Part shown: one piece after another, positions 32,443 through 38,955 of the stretch
Position numbering within the stretch: position 1 is the stretch's first letter
Layout of the letters: the number at the start of each line of letters is the position of its first letter
Assembly: GCF_947496075.1 (NCBI RefSeq)
Contig: NZ_CANMBJ010000001.1
Coordinates: forward strand, 248,001-312,000
Direction of reading: 5' to 3'
DNA: 64,000 nucleotides
Source: an uncultured Tateyamaria sp.
GTDB taxonomy: Bacteria; Pseudomonadota; Alphaproteobacteria; Rhodobacterales; Rhodobacteraceae
Program-made: the position numbers and the translations under genes
The notes under the pieces: model-generated
What the model was told of the DNA's origin: nothing
Databases searched by the model: none
The model's input: only the letters and a program-made list of their open reading frames with translations

Positions 32443-33981
32443 TCACTGCACGATAATCTCCGGCCCCATCATCAGGGTCGGCAACCAGATCGAAATGGCC
32501 GGAATATAGGTCACCATGATCAGGAAGACGAAGAGGACGGCCAGGAACGGCAGCGCCGCCCGGACGACCCGCATCATCGGCATCCCCGCCACGCCTGAAG
32601 TGACAAACAGGTTCAGCCCCACAGGCGGCGTGATCATCCCGATCTCCATGTTCACCACCATGATGATGCCCAGGTGAATGGGGTCGATGCCCAATTCAAT
32701 GGCGATGGGGAACACCAGCGGGGCCACGATGACCAACAGGCCCGATGGCTCCATGAACTGTCCGCCAATCAGCAGGATCACGTTCACGATGATCAGGAAC
32801 ACCACGGGGCCAAACCCAGCATCCAGCATCGCCCCGGCAATCTGCTGCGGGATCTGCTCGTCCGTTAGAACATGCTTCAGGATCAAGGCATTTGCGATGA
32901 TGAACATCAACGTAACGGTCAGCTTACCGGCTTCAAAAAAAGCGTGCTTCGTGTCGCGGTGCACCAGTGCCAACGGCATCCGGGCAAAGTCCGTCGCAAT
33001 CGAGACGGGGTTCAAATCCAACCCACGCACGATCCGCTCGGCCACCGCGCCCACGGCCGCCAGCGCAAAGCCAATCAGGACAGAGGTGGTCAGGTCGAGG
33101 CCGCCCGACACCAGCCAGATGACGATCCCAAGCGCCAACCCGCCCATCAGCGTGATGCCAGTGAAATTGCCCGCCCTTGGCGCCACCTTCGAAAATGGCC
33201 CCATGTCGCGGTAGATGAAACTGGCAATCAGGAAGGAATAAACGGCTGCTACGGCGGCGGCTTCGGTGGGCGTGAAGATACCACCATAAATCCCGCCCAG
33301 AATGATGATGATCAGGAACAGACCACCCGACGCGGCCCCGGCGGAGGAGGCAACCTCGCCCCAGCCGAGCCAATCCCCTTTGGGCAGGTTCTTGATCTTG
33401 GCGATGGCATAGATCGTGACCATCAGCATGGTGCCCGCCATGAGGCCCGGAATGACGCCCGCAAGGAACATCCGCCCCACAGAAACATCCGTGGCCGAGG
33501 CATAGACCACCATCACGATGGACGGCGGGATGAGGATGCCCAGCGTGCCCGCATTGGCGATGACGCCCGCCGCAAAGTCCTTGGAATAGCCCACCTGCCG
33601 CATACCCGCGATCACGATGGAGCCGATGGCTACAACCGTGGCCGGCGATGACCCGGACAGGGCCGCGAACATCATGCAGGCGAACACGCCCGCGATGGCC
33701 AGACCACCGGGGAAATGGCCCACGACCGCGATGGAAAACCGGATGATCCGTTTCGCCACCCCACCCGTCGACATGAAGGTCGAGGCGAGGATGAAGAACG
33801 GGATCGCCAGCAACGTGTAGTGCCCCGCCATCGCCTGGAACAGCGTCTGCGCAATTGAGGCGAGCGACGTGTCGCTCAGCACCAGCAGGAACACGATCGA
33901 CGACATGCCCAGAGCCACGGCAATCGGCACCCCGATCAGCATCATCCCCACGACGAGGGTAAAGAGAATTGCAACTTCCAT
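32443..33981 (-). CDS. dctM: TRAP transporter large permease (DctM)
   Basis: A 512-aa membrane protein with ~12-13 hydrophobic segments, beginning 'VAILFTLVVGMMLIGVPIAVALG' and containing the DctM signature 'ALSGSSPATVVAIGSIVIAGMRQVGY' (residues ~115-140) and 'GILIPPSIVMVVYA' (~150). A central hydrophilic insert (residues ~265-345) is longer than in the shortest family members. It carries the substrate across the inner membrane using the sodium or proton gradient, fed by DctP. It follows dctQ with a 4-nt gap. Confidence 0.95.
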   Translation of the reverse strand: MEVAILFTLVVGMMLIGVPIAVALGMSSIVFLLVLSDTSLASIAQTLFQAMAGHYTLLAIPFFILASTFMSTGGVAKRIIRFSIAVVGHFPGGLAIAGVFACMMFAALSGSSPATVVAIGSIVIAGMRQVGYSKDFAAGVIANAGTLGILIPPSIVMVVYASATDVSVGRMFLAGVIPGLMAGTMLMVTIYAIAKIKNLPKGDWLGWGEVASSAGAASGGLFLIIIILGGIYGGIFTPTEAAAVAAVYSFLIASFIYRDMGPFSKVAPRAGNFTGITLMGGLALGIVIWLVSGGLDLTTSVLIGFALAAVGAVAERIVRGLDLNPVSIATDFARMPLALVHRDTKHAFFEAGKLTVTLMFIIANALILKHVLTDEQIPQQIAGAMLDAGFGPVVFLIIVNVILLIGGQFMEPSGLLVIVAPLVFPIAIELGIDPIHLGIIMVVNMEIGMITPPVGLNLFVTSGVAGMPMMRVVRAALPFLAVLFVFLIMVTYIPAISIWLPTLMMGPEIIVQ

Positions 33982-33985
33982 GGTC

Positions 33986-34675
33986 TCAGTCGTCCCGGTT
34001 CAGGTGTTTGACGTCTTCGATGGCGTCTTCGGCCTCGTGGCTGACGATCAGGCTAGTGGTTTGTCCCCGCCAGACCCTCACAGTCGCCTGCACGAAACGG
34101 AACAGCAGCAGGCCCATGCCAAACGGCAGAATGGCGTAGGGAATGAAGCGCGGAATTTTCTCGTATGCTTCACCCTCATTCATCAGAGGTTCGATCCATT
34201 TCAGCCATGCGGGATGCGGAATATCGACCGTCTCGTACCACCCGCGATAGGACGAACGCTTCATCTCTTCGAACCCCGTGGGGAACCAGCGGCCCGTGGT
34301 CTGCGGCAGGTTGGCGAAGTTGGCCCAATAGTCCCACGCGCCCTTGAAGACGAGGAAGGCGTAGGCGATGCAGATGGCACCTGCGACCAATGCGATAACC
34401 CGGCGGACCGGAGCAGAGAACAGGTTGATGACCGCATCAACGCCAAGGTTAGCTGTGATCTTGACCGCATAGCTGACCCCGAAGAGGACCAGCCAGGCAA
34501 AGAGGAAGGTCACCATCTCGAGGCCCCAGATAAGGCCGGTGTTGTAGCCGTAGCGCAGCACCACGTTGATGAAGGTGATGAGTGTCATCAAGGCCAGCAG
34601 GATCGCGATGGCCGTTTCTTCGATTTCGTTGACCCAGCGGCCAAAGCCCGAGCTGGGATCATAAGCGCCTGCCAT
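33986..34675 (-). CDS. dctQ: TRAP transporter small permease (DctQ)
   Basis: A 229-aa protein with four predicted membrane helices (for example 'AIAILLALMTLITFINVVLRYG' and 'LVLFGVSYAVKITANLGVDAVINLF'), the DctQ pattern 'TGLIWGLEMVTFLFAWLVLFG' and a long central soluble loop ('NLPQTTGRWFPTGFEEMKRSSYRGWYE') not present in the shortest members. It pairs with DctM to form the TRAP membrane complex. The order dctP-dctQ-dctM is kept. Confidence 0.93.
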   Translation of the reverse strand: MAGAYDPSSGFGRWVNEIEETAIAILLALMTLITFINVVLRYGYNTGLIWGLEMVTFLFAWLVLFGVSYAVKITANLGVDAVINLFSAPVRRVIALVAGAICIAYAFLVFKGAWDYWANFANLPQTTGRWFPTGFEEMKRSSYRGWYETVDIPHPAWLKWIEPLMNEGEAYEKIPRFIPYAILPFGMGLLLFRFVQATVRVWRGQTTSLIVSHEAEDAIEDVKHLNRDD

Positions 34676-34752: not shown

Positions 34753-35751
34753 TTAGTTGGTCGCGGCGTTGATGGCTTGCGCCGCGTCGATATTGTCCTG
34801 GCCTACGTCGTCCTTGAACTGGTCCCAAACGGGTTTCATCACGGACACCCAGGCTTCGCGCTGTGCGGCGTCCAGCTGGCGCACAGTACCACCGGCGTCG
34901 ATGATGGCCTGCTTGGCCTCTTCATTGACTTCGAAGGCTTGCGTGTTGCGGGTGGTGGTGACGTCTTCCACGATGGCCGCCAATTGGGTCCGCGCGTCGT
35001 CAGGCATGCTGTCCCAGAAGTCCGTGGATGTCACGACGAGGTAGTCGATGATGCCGTGGTTCGTCTCGGTGATCCCATCCTGCACTTCAAAGAACTTCTT
35101 GCCGTAGATGTTGGACCAGGTGTTTTCCTGACCGTCCACAACGCCGGTCTGCAGCGCGCCATAGACTTCGGAAAAGGCCATGGGCTGGGGCGAGCCACCG
35201 ATGGCCGCCATCTGCGCCTTGAGCACGTCGGAGTTCTGGACGCGGAACTTGAGGCCGTTGGCATCCGCAGGTGTCATCAGCGGCTTGTTGGCCGACATCT
35301 GCTTCATGCCGTTGTGCCAGAACGCCAGACCCAACAGGCCGCGGCGGGTCATCGATTCCTTCATCGCCTGACCGGTTTCGGACGCCTGGAAGGCGTCAAC
35401 CGCGTCGATGTCCTTGAACATGAACGGCAAGTCGAAGATGCGGAACTGCTTGGTGAACTGCTCGAACTTCGACAGCGACGGAGCGGCCATCTGAACGTCG
35501 CCCTGCAGCAGCGCTTCGAGCACCTGGTCGTCGTTGTAGAGGGTCGAGTTCGGGAACACTTCCATGCAGGCGGTGCCGTTCATTTCCTCGTTCACGCGCT
35601 CTTGCAGCAGCGAGGCGGCGATGCCCTTGGGGTGCTTGTCGGTGTTGGTGACGTGGCTGAACTTGATGACGATTTCGCCATCGTCACAGGCAGCGGCCAC
35701 GGCGCCTGCGCTGACGGTCAATGCCAGGGCGGCGGCGGTCAGGAATTTCAT
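34753..35751 (-). CDS. dctP: TRAP transporter substrate-binding protein (DctP)
   Basis: From the ATG at 35751 (GGAGG 9 nt upstream) the protein is 332 aa; the ORF-track start at 35841 is too long. Signal peptide: 'MKFLTAAALALTVSAGAVAA'. DctP motifs include 'VIKFSHVTNTDKHPKGIAA', 'VEVFPN'-like 'CMEVFPNSTLYND', 'LPFMFKDIDAVDAF' and the carboxylate-contacting Arg region 'GLKFRVQNSDVLKAQMAAIGG', where the conserved Arg binds the ligand. Ligands are typically C4-dicarboxylates or related organic acids. The 244-nt upstream gap carries two palindromes, the likely control region. Confidence 0.93.
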   Translation of the reverse strand: MKFLTAAALALTVSAGAVAAACDDGEIVIKFSHVTNTDKHPKGIAASLLQERVNEEMNGTACMEVFPNSTLYNDDQVLEALLQGDVQMAAPSLSKFEQFTKQFRIFDLPFMFKDIDAVDAFQASETGQAMKESMTRRGLLGLAFWHNGMKQMSANKPLMTPADANGLKFRVQNSDVLKAQMAAIGGSPQPMAFSEVYGALQTGVVDGQENTWSNIYGKKFFEVQDGITETNHGIIDYLVVTSTDFWDSMPDDARTQLAAIVEDVTTTRNTQAFEVNEEAKQAIIDAGGTVRQLDAAQREAWVSVMKPVWDQFKDDVGQDNIDAAQAINAATN

Positions 35752-35846
35752 TGTCTGTCTCCTCCCAGAGATCGTGTTTTTGGGACGTGTCCCCGCGGGG
35801 ACAGCGATTTGGATAAAAGCAGAGCGTACGGTGGGGTACATAGAAG

Positions 35847-35861: not shown

Positions 35862-35969
35862 TCTCGCCACCGCCTTATCCATTATTTTTCAATATCTTAA
35901 AGAACACTTTGGAAGTTGCTCAGGTGTTGCGCGCTGCCTGTGTGTGCGGATTTTCGCACGACCCCATGC

Positions 35970-35997
35970 AACACTGTGTGGAAATCCACACAGTGTT
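35970..35997. promoter_or_regulatory. 28-bp near-perfect palindrome between dctD and dctP
   Basis: AACACTGTGTGGA-AA-TCCACACAGTGTT: 13-bp arms with a 2-nt centre, touching the dctD stop codon. No T-tract follows on the minus strand, so a protein-binding site or mRNA-end structure is more likely than a simple terminator. Confidence 0.5.
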
Positions 35998-37225
35998 AGC
36001 GCCGATAGTCCTCAGGCCGAATCCCGTATTTCTTGAGCTTGTCGTAGAAGGTTTTGCGCGGGAGCCTCAGCGCTTCGGCAGCCGCGCTGGCATGCCCGTT
36101 CTGTCGCCCCAGCGCCGCAACCAGCAATGAGCGCTCAACCCGCGCCATCTGCTCGGCCAAGCCGAGATCAACAGCCTTGGACGCATCCTCGGGCATGCCC
36201 AGTACAAAGCGCATGGCGGCACTCATCAACGATCGCGCGTTGCCGGGCCAGTCCTGCGCCATCAGGGCGGCCATATGATCCGGGGCCAGTTCAGGCGGGG
36301 TCAGGCCCGCCTGCTCTGCCGCCTGGGCGACATAGTGGCGGAACAGGATGGGGATGTCCTCGGGGCGTTCGCTCAGCGACGGAATGCGGATCGGGAACAT
36401 CTCGATTTTGTAGTAAAGATCGGCGTTCAAAGCGCCCTCTTCCACGGCTGTGCCAAGGTTGCGTGTGCTGCCAGCGATCAGTCGCGGGCCTTCGCCTGCC
36501 TCCAGCGCTTCGAGCAGGGCGAGTTGGCTGGCATGGGGCAGCCCGGTGACTTCATCCAGAAACAGGCTCCCCCCCTTGGCCTTGTCCATAGACTCGGCCA
36601 GTGCGCCCGGGCGCAGATCGGCGGCGGCGCGTTTGACAAAGGGCGCCTTGGACCGAAGGGAGCTGAGGTGAATGACCTCGGCCACCTTGGAAATGCCCGT
36701 GCCGGGCGCTCCGGTCACAAGCACCTCGGTCTCAAGCGGGGCCAGCAGCCGCACGCGGTCACGCAAGCCATTGGCAAGATCGCTTTCGCCAAAGAGCATA
36801 CGGGCGGCCGGATCACCGCTTTCCACCAGTTGCCGCAGGCGGCGGTTTTCAAGAACCAGGGCGCGGGTTTTCAATGCACGCTCAAGAACAGCCAGCAACT
36901 CATTGGGCGCACAGGGTTTTTCGAGGAAGCCAAATGCGCCGTCACGCATCGCCTGCACGGCCATCGGAATGTCACCTTCCCCCGTCAACAGGATCACCGG
37001 CAGGTCCGGATCGATCTTGCGCGTGTGGGCCAAGAGATGAAAGCCGTCGCGCCCCGGCATGCGGATATCAGACAAGATCACACCGTCAAAGTCGCGTGTG
37101 ATGTGATCTTTGGCGACCACGAAAGAGCCTGCCGGGATTGGCTCAAGATCTGCAAGCTCCAACGTTTGGGCCAGCGCGTCACGCACGGCGGCGTCATCAT
37201 CGACAAGCAGCACTTGGGTGGTCAC
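35996..37225 (-). CDS. DctD-like response regulator with degenerate AAA+ domain
   Basis: From the GTG at 37225, whose GTGA overlaps the dctB stop, the protein is 409 aa. The receiver is normal: 'LLVDDDAAVRDAL', phospho-Asp in 'GVILSDIRMPGRDG' (~residue 52), Thr in 'LLTGEG', Lys in 'LEKPCAP'. The sigma-54 ATPase domain is not: Walker A reads 'GAPGTGIS', with Ile in place of the catalytic Lys; the GAFTGA loop is gone, the stretch reading 'ADLRPGALAESMDKAKGG'; the arginine-finger segment reads 'NADLYYKI'. Walker B 'GSLFLDEV' survives. The C-terminal Fis-type helix-turn-helix 'ASAAAEALRLPRKTFYDKLKKYG' is intact. It should bind DNA in response to DctB but not activate sigma-54 in the usual way. 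Confidence 0.9.
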   Translation of the reverse strand: MTTQVLLVDDDAAVRDALAQTLELADLEPIPAGSFVVAKDHITRDFDGVILSDIRMPGRDGFHLLAHTRKIDPDLPVILLTGEGDIPMAVQAMRDGAFGFLEKPCAPNELLAVLERALKTRALVLENRRLRQLVESGDPAARMLFGESDLANGLRDRVRLLAPLETEVLVTGAPGTGISKVAEVIHLSSLRSKAPFVKRAAADLRPGALAESMDKAKGGSLFLDEVTGLPHASQLALLEALEAGEGPRLIAGSTRNLGTAVEEGALNADLYYKIEMFPIRIPSLSERPEDIPILFRHYVAQAAEQAGLTPPELAPDHMAALMAQDWPGNARSLMSAAMRFVLGMPEDASKAVDLGLAEQMARVERSLLVAALGRQNGHASAAAEALRLPRKTFYDKLKKYGIRPEDYRR

Positions 37226-38955
37226 GCGGCTACCTCTTGGGTCCAAGGTTGCAGATCGACCGTGAACACCGCGCCGTCCGGGCCATTGTCGCCGTGGATT
37301 TCACCGCCAAAGCTTTGCACGATGCCGTATGAGATCGAGAGGCCCAGCCCCATCCCTTCGGATGCGCCGACCTCTTTGGTGGAATAGAACGGGTCGAACA
37401 CGCGGTCTGGCGTTTCGATGCCCGGGCCGGTGTCGGAGATGATGACCGAGGTGTCATGAATTTCGATGGTCAGCGCGCGCCTGCCGCGCCCCGCCATGGC
37501 GTCGACCGCATTCGAGATCAGGTTGACGAAGACCTGCCCCAGCCGCACCTCACCCCCCGACACCCAAACGGGTGCGTCGGGCAGGTTGAGCGTGAGTGTC
37601 ACATCCTCGTTCCGCATACGCGGCGTGGTCAGTTCCACAGCACTTTGCACCACCTGGGCAAGGTCCACGCGCAGCGCCGGTTCGCTTTCCTGCCGGGCAA
37701 AGGCGCGCAGGTTCTTGATGATGCGCCCCATGCGGCGGGCCATGTCGGCGATGCGGCCCAGATTGTCTTCGGCCCGGTCGGGTTTGTCGCGCTGCAGGAA
37801 GGCCTGCGCATTGTCGGCATAGGTCTGGATCGCCATGAGTGGTTGATTGAGTTCATGGCTGAGCCCCGCGCTCATCTGTCCCAGTGCACTCAGTTTGCCC
37901 GCCTGGACAAGGGCGGCCTGCGCCTGTGCGAGGGCGGCTTGCGCCTCTTCCCGCTCCTCGGCCTCGCGCCGGAGCTGGGTGTTGGTGTCGGACAGGGCGG
38001 CGGTGCGTTCAGCCACGCGTTGTTCCAGTTGCGCGTTCGCTTCGGCCAATGTGCGGCGCCGTTCCGTGGCAAGGAACAGCAGCGCGCCGAAGGCAAGGCA
38101 CAGCCCTGCCACCGCTGCGGCCTGTAGCGTCGCAAGGCGGCGGGCCGGGGCGACATCCACAAGCGCCTCGCCCGTCATGCCGATCACCGGCAAGGGTCGT
38201 ACAAGGTGCAGGGCGTTTTGCGGCAGGTACGGCCCCCACCCCAATTGCCAGACCTCATGCCGCCCCAGTTCGTAGCTGTCGAAAGGCAACGCCGGGCCAG
38301 TGGCCGGTTTCAGGCCCGGCCCCTCGTCCGCGCGTTGCCAATAGACGATTTCGGATCGATTGGTGATGAACACCCGGTCCCGCGCGTCGGTGAAAAACAC
38401 CGCAGGGTTGGAGCCGACCCAATCCCATTCGATCCCGGCAAGGTCCGCCGTCACAACCACGATTCCGGTGATCCGCGACCGGGCATCAAAGACGGGTGCT
38501 GCGTAAGCAAAGACGCGTGTGCCCTGGGCCGTGCGCCCATTGCCCCAGCCCAGCGCCCCTTGCGCCGCACGCGCCACCAGCGGCGCAATATCAAGACCCG
38601 GTTGATCGGAGCGCGCAGCGGCTAGCACGAGCCCCTCTGCATTCGTCAGGCGGATGTCTTGCGCTGCCGTTTTGTCTGCAATTTCAAGGAACAGCGCTTC
38701 GGCTTGGCTGACATCTTCCCCTGCAAGTGCCGCACTGACACGGGGATGATCCGCCACCAGCACTGCGAGTTCACGGTAGCGCTGGAGCTGCCCTGTCAGG
38801 CGGTCCGAGGCAAGCGCAAGATCCGATTGCCCCTGCCGGGCCAGTTGATCAAGCGCCTGGAAGTACCCGTAGCGCCACACGCCGGCGGCTGCCGCCGCAA
38901 CCAGCGCAACAAAGCCCAGCACCACGCTGATCCGTCTGAGGTATCCGTTTCCCAT
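37222..38955 (-). CDS. DctB-like sensor histidine kinase
   Basis: From the ATG at 38955 the protein is 577 aa; the ORF-track start at 39273 adds 106 Pro/Arg-rich residues that look non-coding and overlap the P450 promoter. An N-terminal membrane helix 'RRISVVLGFVALVAAAAAGVW', a periplasmic sensor of dCache type (residues ~35-270), a second helix 'LQAAAVAGLCLAFGALLFLA' (~285-305), a coiled coil, then the kinase: H-box 'GLSHELNQPLMAIQTYAD' (~355), N-box 'QVFVNLISNAVDAM', G1 'ISDTGPGI', F/G2 'FDPFYSTKEVGASEGMGLGLS'. All catalytic motifs are intact, unlike its partner's ATPase. It should sense an extracellular organic acid and phosphorylate the DctD-like regulator. Confidence 0.9.
   Translation of the reverse strand: MGNGYLRRISVVLGFVALVAAAAAGVWRYGYFQALDQLARQGQSDLALASDRLTGQLQRYRELAVLVADHPRVSAALAGEDVSQAEALFLEIADKTAAQDIRLTNAEGLVLAAARSDQPGLDIAPLVARAAQGALGWGNGRTAQGTRVFAYAAPVFDARSRITGIVVVTADLAGIEWDWVGSNPAVFFTDARDRVFITNRSEIVYWQRADEGPGLKPATGPALPFDSYELGRHEVWQLGWGPYLPQNALHLVRPLPVIGMTGEALVDVAPARRLATLQAAAVAGLCLAFGALLFLATERRRTLAEANAQLEQRVAERTAALSDTNTQLRREAEEREEAQAALAQAQAALVQAGKLSALGQMSAGLSHELNQPLMAIQTYADNAQAFLQRDKPDRAEDNLGRIADMARRMGRIIKNLRAFARQESEPALRVDLAQVVQSAVELTTPRMRNEDVTLTLNLPDAPVWVSGGEVRLGQVFVNLISNAVDAMAGRGRRALTIEIHDTSVIISDTGPGIETPDRVFDPFYSTKEVGASEGMGLGLSISYGIVQSFGGEIHGDNGPDGAVFTVDLQPWTQEVAA

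Follow-up and report, generated by a model that had tools for sequence, protein, structure and literature searches.

The dctD gene of the window (the whole analysed stretch of 64,000 nucleotides from an uncultured Tateyamaria sp.) raises the question of how a protein with the build of a sigma-54 activator might control a TRAP transporter operon once its motor motifs have been lost. In rhizobia, DctD activates dctA through sigma-54 and hydrolyses ATP; the form described here resembles this protein in having a DctB partner, a receiver and C4-dicarboxylate transport as its target, but differs in lacking both motor and sigma-54 and in being directed at a TRAP operon. The genes dctB, dctD, dctP, dctQ and dctM follow one another in this order on the minus strand (Table 1), with the dctB stop overlapping the dctD start by 4 bp, and the dctD reading frame runs from a GTG at 37225 to a TAA at 35998-35996. 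The C4-dicarboxylate role of dctP is assigned by analogy with R. pomeroyi SPO2626-2628. The partner kinase DctB, which the sequence-only reading had taken to be complete, does look intact, as HisKA and HATPase_c both score above the Pfam cut-off.

Table 1. Features of the dct locus in the window, and positions of further regulators in the same genome (G000)
Feature	Position	Strand	Remarks
dctB, sensor kinase	37222..38955	-	Cache-like sensor, HisKA, HATPase_c; start coordinate approximate
dctD	35996..37225	-	409 aa; receiver, degenerate AAA+, Fis-type HTH
Upstream operator, TGTGTGGATTTCCACACA	35975..35992	-	10/12 consensus bases
Downstream operator, CGTGCGAAAATCCGCACA	35943..35960	-	11/12 consensus bases; 32 bp from the first
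IHF-like site, TAAGATATTGAAA	35887..35899	-	At the position of clade YAAN4TTGAWA; putative function
Equivalent of clade -35/-10	35818..35845	-	TTCTAT ... TCTGCT; poor match, weak
dctP, TRAP substrate-binding protein, predicted target	34753..35751	-	
dctQ, TRAP small membrane subunit	33986..34675	-	Named from position and size
dctM, TRAP large membrane subunit	32443..33981	-	Named from position and size
Other GAFTGA-less regulators retaining the Walker A Lys	C2:1072939 (L006/L008), C2:1076651 (L001), C8:53845 (L003), C2:1253835 (L004)		

The window protein retains the architecture of a group I sigma-54 enhancer-binding protein (receiver, AAA+ and Fis-type HTH), with Response_reg, the AAA+ core, the AAA lid and HTH_8 all above their Pfam cut-offs. 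The receiver and the DNA-binding domain are intact, as was originally proposed, Asp53 and Lys103 both being present. Walker A reads GAPGTGISK and aligns to GESGTGKE without a gap, which places Ile at 178 and Lys at 180 and confirms the reported substitution of the ATP-binding Lys (K178I). The notion that this Lys is displaced but intact was rejected, because a match free of gaps rules out Lys180 as the P-loop Lys. The stretch from the PFV strand to Walker B counts 25 residues, against 44 in the GAFTGA-bearing orthologues; hence the whole L1 loop is gone, in agreement with the earlier description of a deleted GAFTGA loop. The L2 segment is also shorter (27 versus 39 residues), and the arginine-finger segment reads LNADLYYKI, as first described, with both the switch Asn and arginine finger 1 missing. 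Walker B (LFLDEV) and the sensor-II motif (WPGNAR) are retained. An AlphaFold2 model of the protein (mean pLDDT 90, pTM 0.64), in which a helix begins at residue 178, has Brucella NtrX and NtrC1 as its best solved fold matches, with VpsR structures also among the matches; the best structures matching the receiver only are those of rhizobial DctD (PDB 1l5y and 1qkk).

These losses are not peculiar to the window protein. A search of 397 Rhodobacteraceae genomes found a DctD homologue in 250, with about 168 falling into the same high-scoring group, the motorless clade, members of which include Tateyamaria, Ruegeria, Phaeobacter, Sulfitobacter, Roseovarius and Shimia by name. The Walker A Lys, a 19-residue L1 segment, the switch Asn and arginine finger 1 are absent from all 120 clade copies that were aligned, and the segment that would hold L1 is 25 residues long in every one of them; residue 178 is never Lys (Ile in 59, Thr in 42, Val in 14 and others in 5). 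The losses in the window protein are not a matter of chance, because they are identical throughout these 120 sequences. Judged by the aligned copies, loss of the DctD motor dates back to an ancestor and has become fixed in many genera of a mostly marine family. By contrast with the motor motifs, the receiver Asp53, Lys180 (two residues after position 178), Glu183 and the sensor II Arg are each retained in 119 of the 120, the Walker B Asp in 114 and its Glu in 105. Conservation is best in the HTH, also high in the receiver, and lowest yet still constrained in the AAA core. Describing this domain as a relic ATPase is too strong: the AAA core does vary more than the other domains, but Walker B, sensor II, Glu183 and a new Lys at position 180 have been retained; the conserved Lys180 and largely preserved Walker B would leave room for nucleotide binding by DctD. 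One clade member (L087, genome G009) has an in-frame TAA in its whole-genome match.

Two palindromes with the consensus TGTGCG-N6-CGCACA, spaced 32-34 bp apart, are found between dctD and dctP. Over the 112 clade loci with dctP downstream, the pair scores at least 19 out of 24 in 111, as against none of 180 shuffles. The best pair is spaced 32-34 bp in all 112 when only spacings of 31-34 bp are scanned, and an unrestricted scan gives the same peak, at 32-33 bp. The upstream operator of the window sits at the centre of a longer perfect palindrome of 28 bp (35970-35997). The same pair adjoins the GAFTGA-bearing DctD genes of L146, L147 and L268, in which a -24/-12 promoter then follows. The possibility that the palindrome behind dctD is a terminator was discarded, since a scan for terminators detected none and nearly all loci have the palindrome twice, at a fixed distance. 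Conservation shows the tandem palindromes to be operators, which DctD presumably binds. That DctD regulates the TRAP operon, as had been suggested, is supported by the tandem pattern occurring just once in the whole 4.94 Mb genome, before dctP. No dct motif was found in the R. sphaeroides network paper.

The promoters that follow the operators differ between the two forms of the regulator. All six GAFTGA orthologues with a syntenic dctP downstream (L146, L147 and L268, also L267, L271 and L284) have a -24/-12 match of 9-10 out of 11 bases. Such a match was found before dctP at 1 of 112 clade loci, where 1.5 were expected by shuffling. The clade instead has a promoter resembling TTGAGC-N17-TTCACT at a fixed place, the -35 starting about 116 bp past the start of the second operator; in 96 of the 112 loci a TTG is located at +113-122 relative to the second operator, and among 40 named loci only 14 have TTGA where it is expected. 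The -24/-12 promoter has probably been replaced in the clade by one of sigma-70 type, presumably used by sigma-70 itself. A strict IHF-like pattern (YAAN4TTGAWA) is present between operators and promoter in only 34 of the 112 loci. In the window, the operators and the IHF-like site are clear and the core promoter is weak; a generic promoter scan detected no sigma-70 site. With dctP start sites taken at predicted positions, about 115-150 bp separate the operators from the predicted -35 downstream of them, and a subset of loci has the IHF-like site in this interval. The view of this protein as an ordinary DNA-binding regulator fits poorly, because such an arrangement has the geometry of an enhancer.

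The claimed loss of the sigma-54 machinery by DctD is matched by the window genome itself (4.94 Mb in 11 contigs, rated 100% complete), in which neither the DNA-binding nor the core-binding domain of sigma-54 was detected over the cut-off by a search that was positive in E. coli, B. subtilis and Caulobacter. Sigma-54 is absent from 131 of the 168 clade genomes and present in 37. The change in DctD is not simply due to losing rpoN, because those 37 genomes retain sigma-54, and none of the 25 clade loci examined from sigma-54-bearing genomes shows a -24/-12 promoter. The window genome also encodes a PAS-containing enhancer-binding protein (L002, G000 C7:87602-88099(-)) with a GAFSGA loop and an intact Walker A, despite having no detectable sigma-54.

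In a DctD tree built by a quick method, with SH-aLRT supports only, the GAFTGA proteins L237, L146 and L147 branch outside, followed by L138, L137 and L139, and then by the clade with its sister group. The window protein branches inside DctD, and shares dctB and dctP neighbours and operators with the intact orthologues; on this placement the clade is a DctD orthologue by descent. L137-L139 lack both GAFTGA and the -24/-12 promoter and keep the Walker A Lys, and are positioned between the intact and degenerate forms (SH-aLRT 99, 98); two of the three have a TTG near the clade position. Because these intermediates are already without a -24/-12 promoter, GAFTGA and the sigma-54 promoter appear to have been lost together first, with decay of the motor, including the Walker A Lys, coming afterwards. 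The sister group of the clade (L140, L142, L144 and L145) has lost Walker B and mostly kept Walker A (L140 has Arg for Lys); dctP was not found in the fetched flanks of these four. A further set of DctD-like proteins (L148-L153, L246, L254, L259, L262, L282 and L283) has the GAFTGA motif replaced by GAFPGA, GSFPGA or GAFAGA, and no -24/-12 promoter was seen in those of their loci with dctP downstream.

The direction of regulation can be approached through Ruegeria pomeroyi, in which SPO2630, annotated as the dct sensor, is next to dctMQP (PMC4809877). R. pomeroyi requires the corresponding transporter to grow on fumarate and is also aided by it on succinate and malate; loss of SPO2630 abolishes growth on fumarate, as does loss of dctM or dctP (PMC10130141). 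Since the sensor mutant fails in the same way as the transporter mutants, the dct system activates. SPO2629 is inferred to be a dctD of the clade form from gene numbering and order and from the Ruegeria relatives L161 and L166, which have the clade form of DctD, the operators, TTGAGC-N17-TTCACT and no sigma-54. Activation is presumed to hold in the window organism.

Clade DctD is thus probably a sigma-54-independent activator of dctPQM that operates from an upstream enhancer on a sigma-70-type promoter, does not hydrolyse ATP and arose stepwise. DctB would be expected to phosphorylate the intact DctD receiver when C4-dicarboxylates are present, and DctD dimers would bind the two tandem palindromes just downstream of dctD. 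From these upstream sites, about 140-175 bp before the predicted start, DctD would stimulate sigma-70 RNA polymerase at the -35/-10-type promoter of dctPQM, and in some genomes bending of the DNA at the IHF-like site would assist. ATP hydrolysis should not be needed by a protein that has lost L1, the Walker A Lys, the switch Asn and arginine finger 1, and the AAA+ domain may persist as an assembly scaffold. GAFTGA and the -24/-12 promoter would have been lost together, and then the Walker A Lys. A broader version is more tentative: a former AAA+ motor, ancestral operators, a DNA bend and a sigma-70 promoter might make up an ATP-free enhancer system throughout the family, with the intermediates recording a swap in place.

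A different account of the nucleotide pocket is unlikely, though it deserves consideration: DctD, activating at sigma-70, could bind ATP without hydrolysing it through Lys180 in a remodelled pocket, so gating oligomerisation. The near-invariance of Lys180, Glu183 and the sensor II Arg and the frequent retention of the Walker B Asp and Glu would suit such a role, as would the requirement of R. capsulatus NtrC for ATP binding rather than hydrolysis (cited in PMC10274813). Position 178 is, however, mostly Ile, Thr or Val, no copy retains the switch Asn or arginine finger 1, and a helix that begins at residue 178 in the model should leave residue 180 facing another way.

It is very unlikely that DctD is mainly a repressor, or a silent DNA-binding protein, at dctP. 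Some GAFTGA-less regulators do also repress, such as Caulobacter NtrC (PMC12421884), but the distance of the operators from the predicted -35 is ill suited to steric repression, and the R. pomeroyi sensor mutant loses growth on fumarate (PMC10130141). That sigma-54 is present but was missed, with a second regulator having an intact motor working in a mixed oligomer, is highly improbable; the GAFSGA protein on contig C7 could be such a partner, yet no sigma-54 domain was detected in a genome rated complete, most sampled clade genomes are also without one, and -24/-12 sites upstream of dctP do not exceed chance. Scarcely credible at all is that DctD is the functionless product of a decaying pseudogene, as the loss of motor motifs and the low conservation of the AAA core might suggest, given that in many genera the reading frame has stayed open and synteny, the operators and the key residues have been preserved.

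Activation by clade DctD without ATP hydrolysis, as preferred here, has partial precedents. Rhodobacter capsulatus NtrC keeps its Walker A Lys, and HupR of the same species acts from upstream sites with IHF. HupR is listed as having lost its interaction with sigma-54 (PMC3162934) and differs from clade DctD in controlling hydrogenase. Regulators without GAFTGA that have left sigma-54 are already known, namely R. capsulatus NtrC, HupR, VpsR and Caulobacter NtrC (PMC10274813, PMC3162934, PMC12421884). The sequence-only reading was justified in pointing to R. capsulatus NtrC, which, with the GAFTGA-less NtrC of other Rhodobacterales and Caulobacter, resembles clade DctD in its deleted L1, and acts with a phosphorylated receiver on sigma-70 promoters, as clade DctD probably does (PMC10274813). 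R. capsulatus NtrC needs ATP binding, whereas the clade belongs to the DctD lineage and has lost the Walker A Lys. Vibrio cholerae VpsR is also an NtrC-type protein without GAFTGA; it uses sigma-70 promoters and has no need of ATP (cited in PMC10274813), and because of this last property it is a closer precedent on the ATP side than R. capsulatus NtrC. VpsR differs in being controlled by c-di-GMP and acting on biofilm genes, while clade DctD still has a cognate kinase, together with the operators and operon of the ancestral DctD. No description of a DctD with a lost Walker A Lys, a coupled promoter swap and living intermediates was found in the literature searched, which lay mostly outside subscription journals.

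A change of promoter class without loss of control is rarely visible, and clade DctD appears to display one. With operators and operon held the same, the intact motor with -24/-12, the intermediates, and the motorless form with -35/-10 provide a series for testing the role of a motorless AAA+ domain. Annotation of clade DctD as sigma-54-dependent would be wrong, and carriers of the motorless form include members of Ruegeria, the genus of the model marine bacterium R. pomeroyi.

The window genome contains other regulators without GAFTGA. A second kinase/DctD-like pair (L005, G000 C1:83354-83812(-)) has a regulator whose Walker A is preserved (GETGTGKT) and whose Walker B is altered (LVLEDI); the tree places this regulator with L154 and L155, as an independent loss. 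NtrC, NtrX and two more NtrC-type regulators also lack GAFTGA and keep the Walker A Lys (Table 1), and one of the regulators listed, L003, adjoins a gene resembling pqqB.
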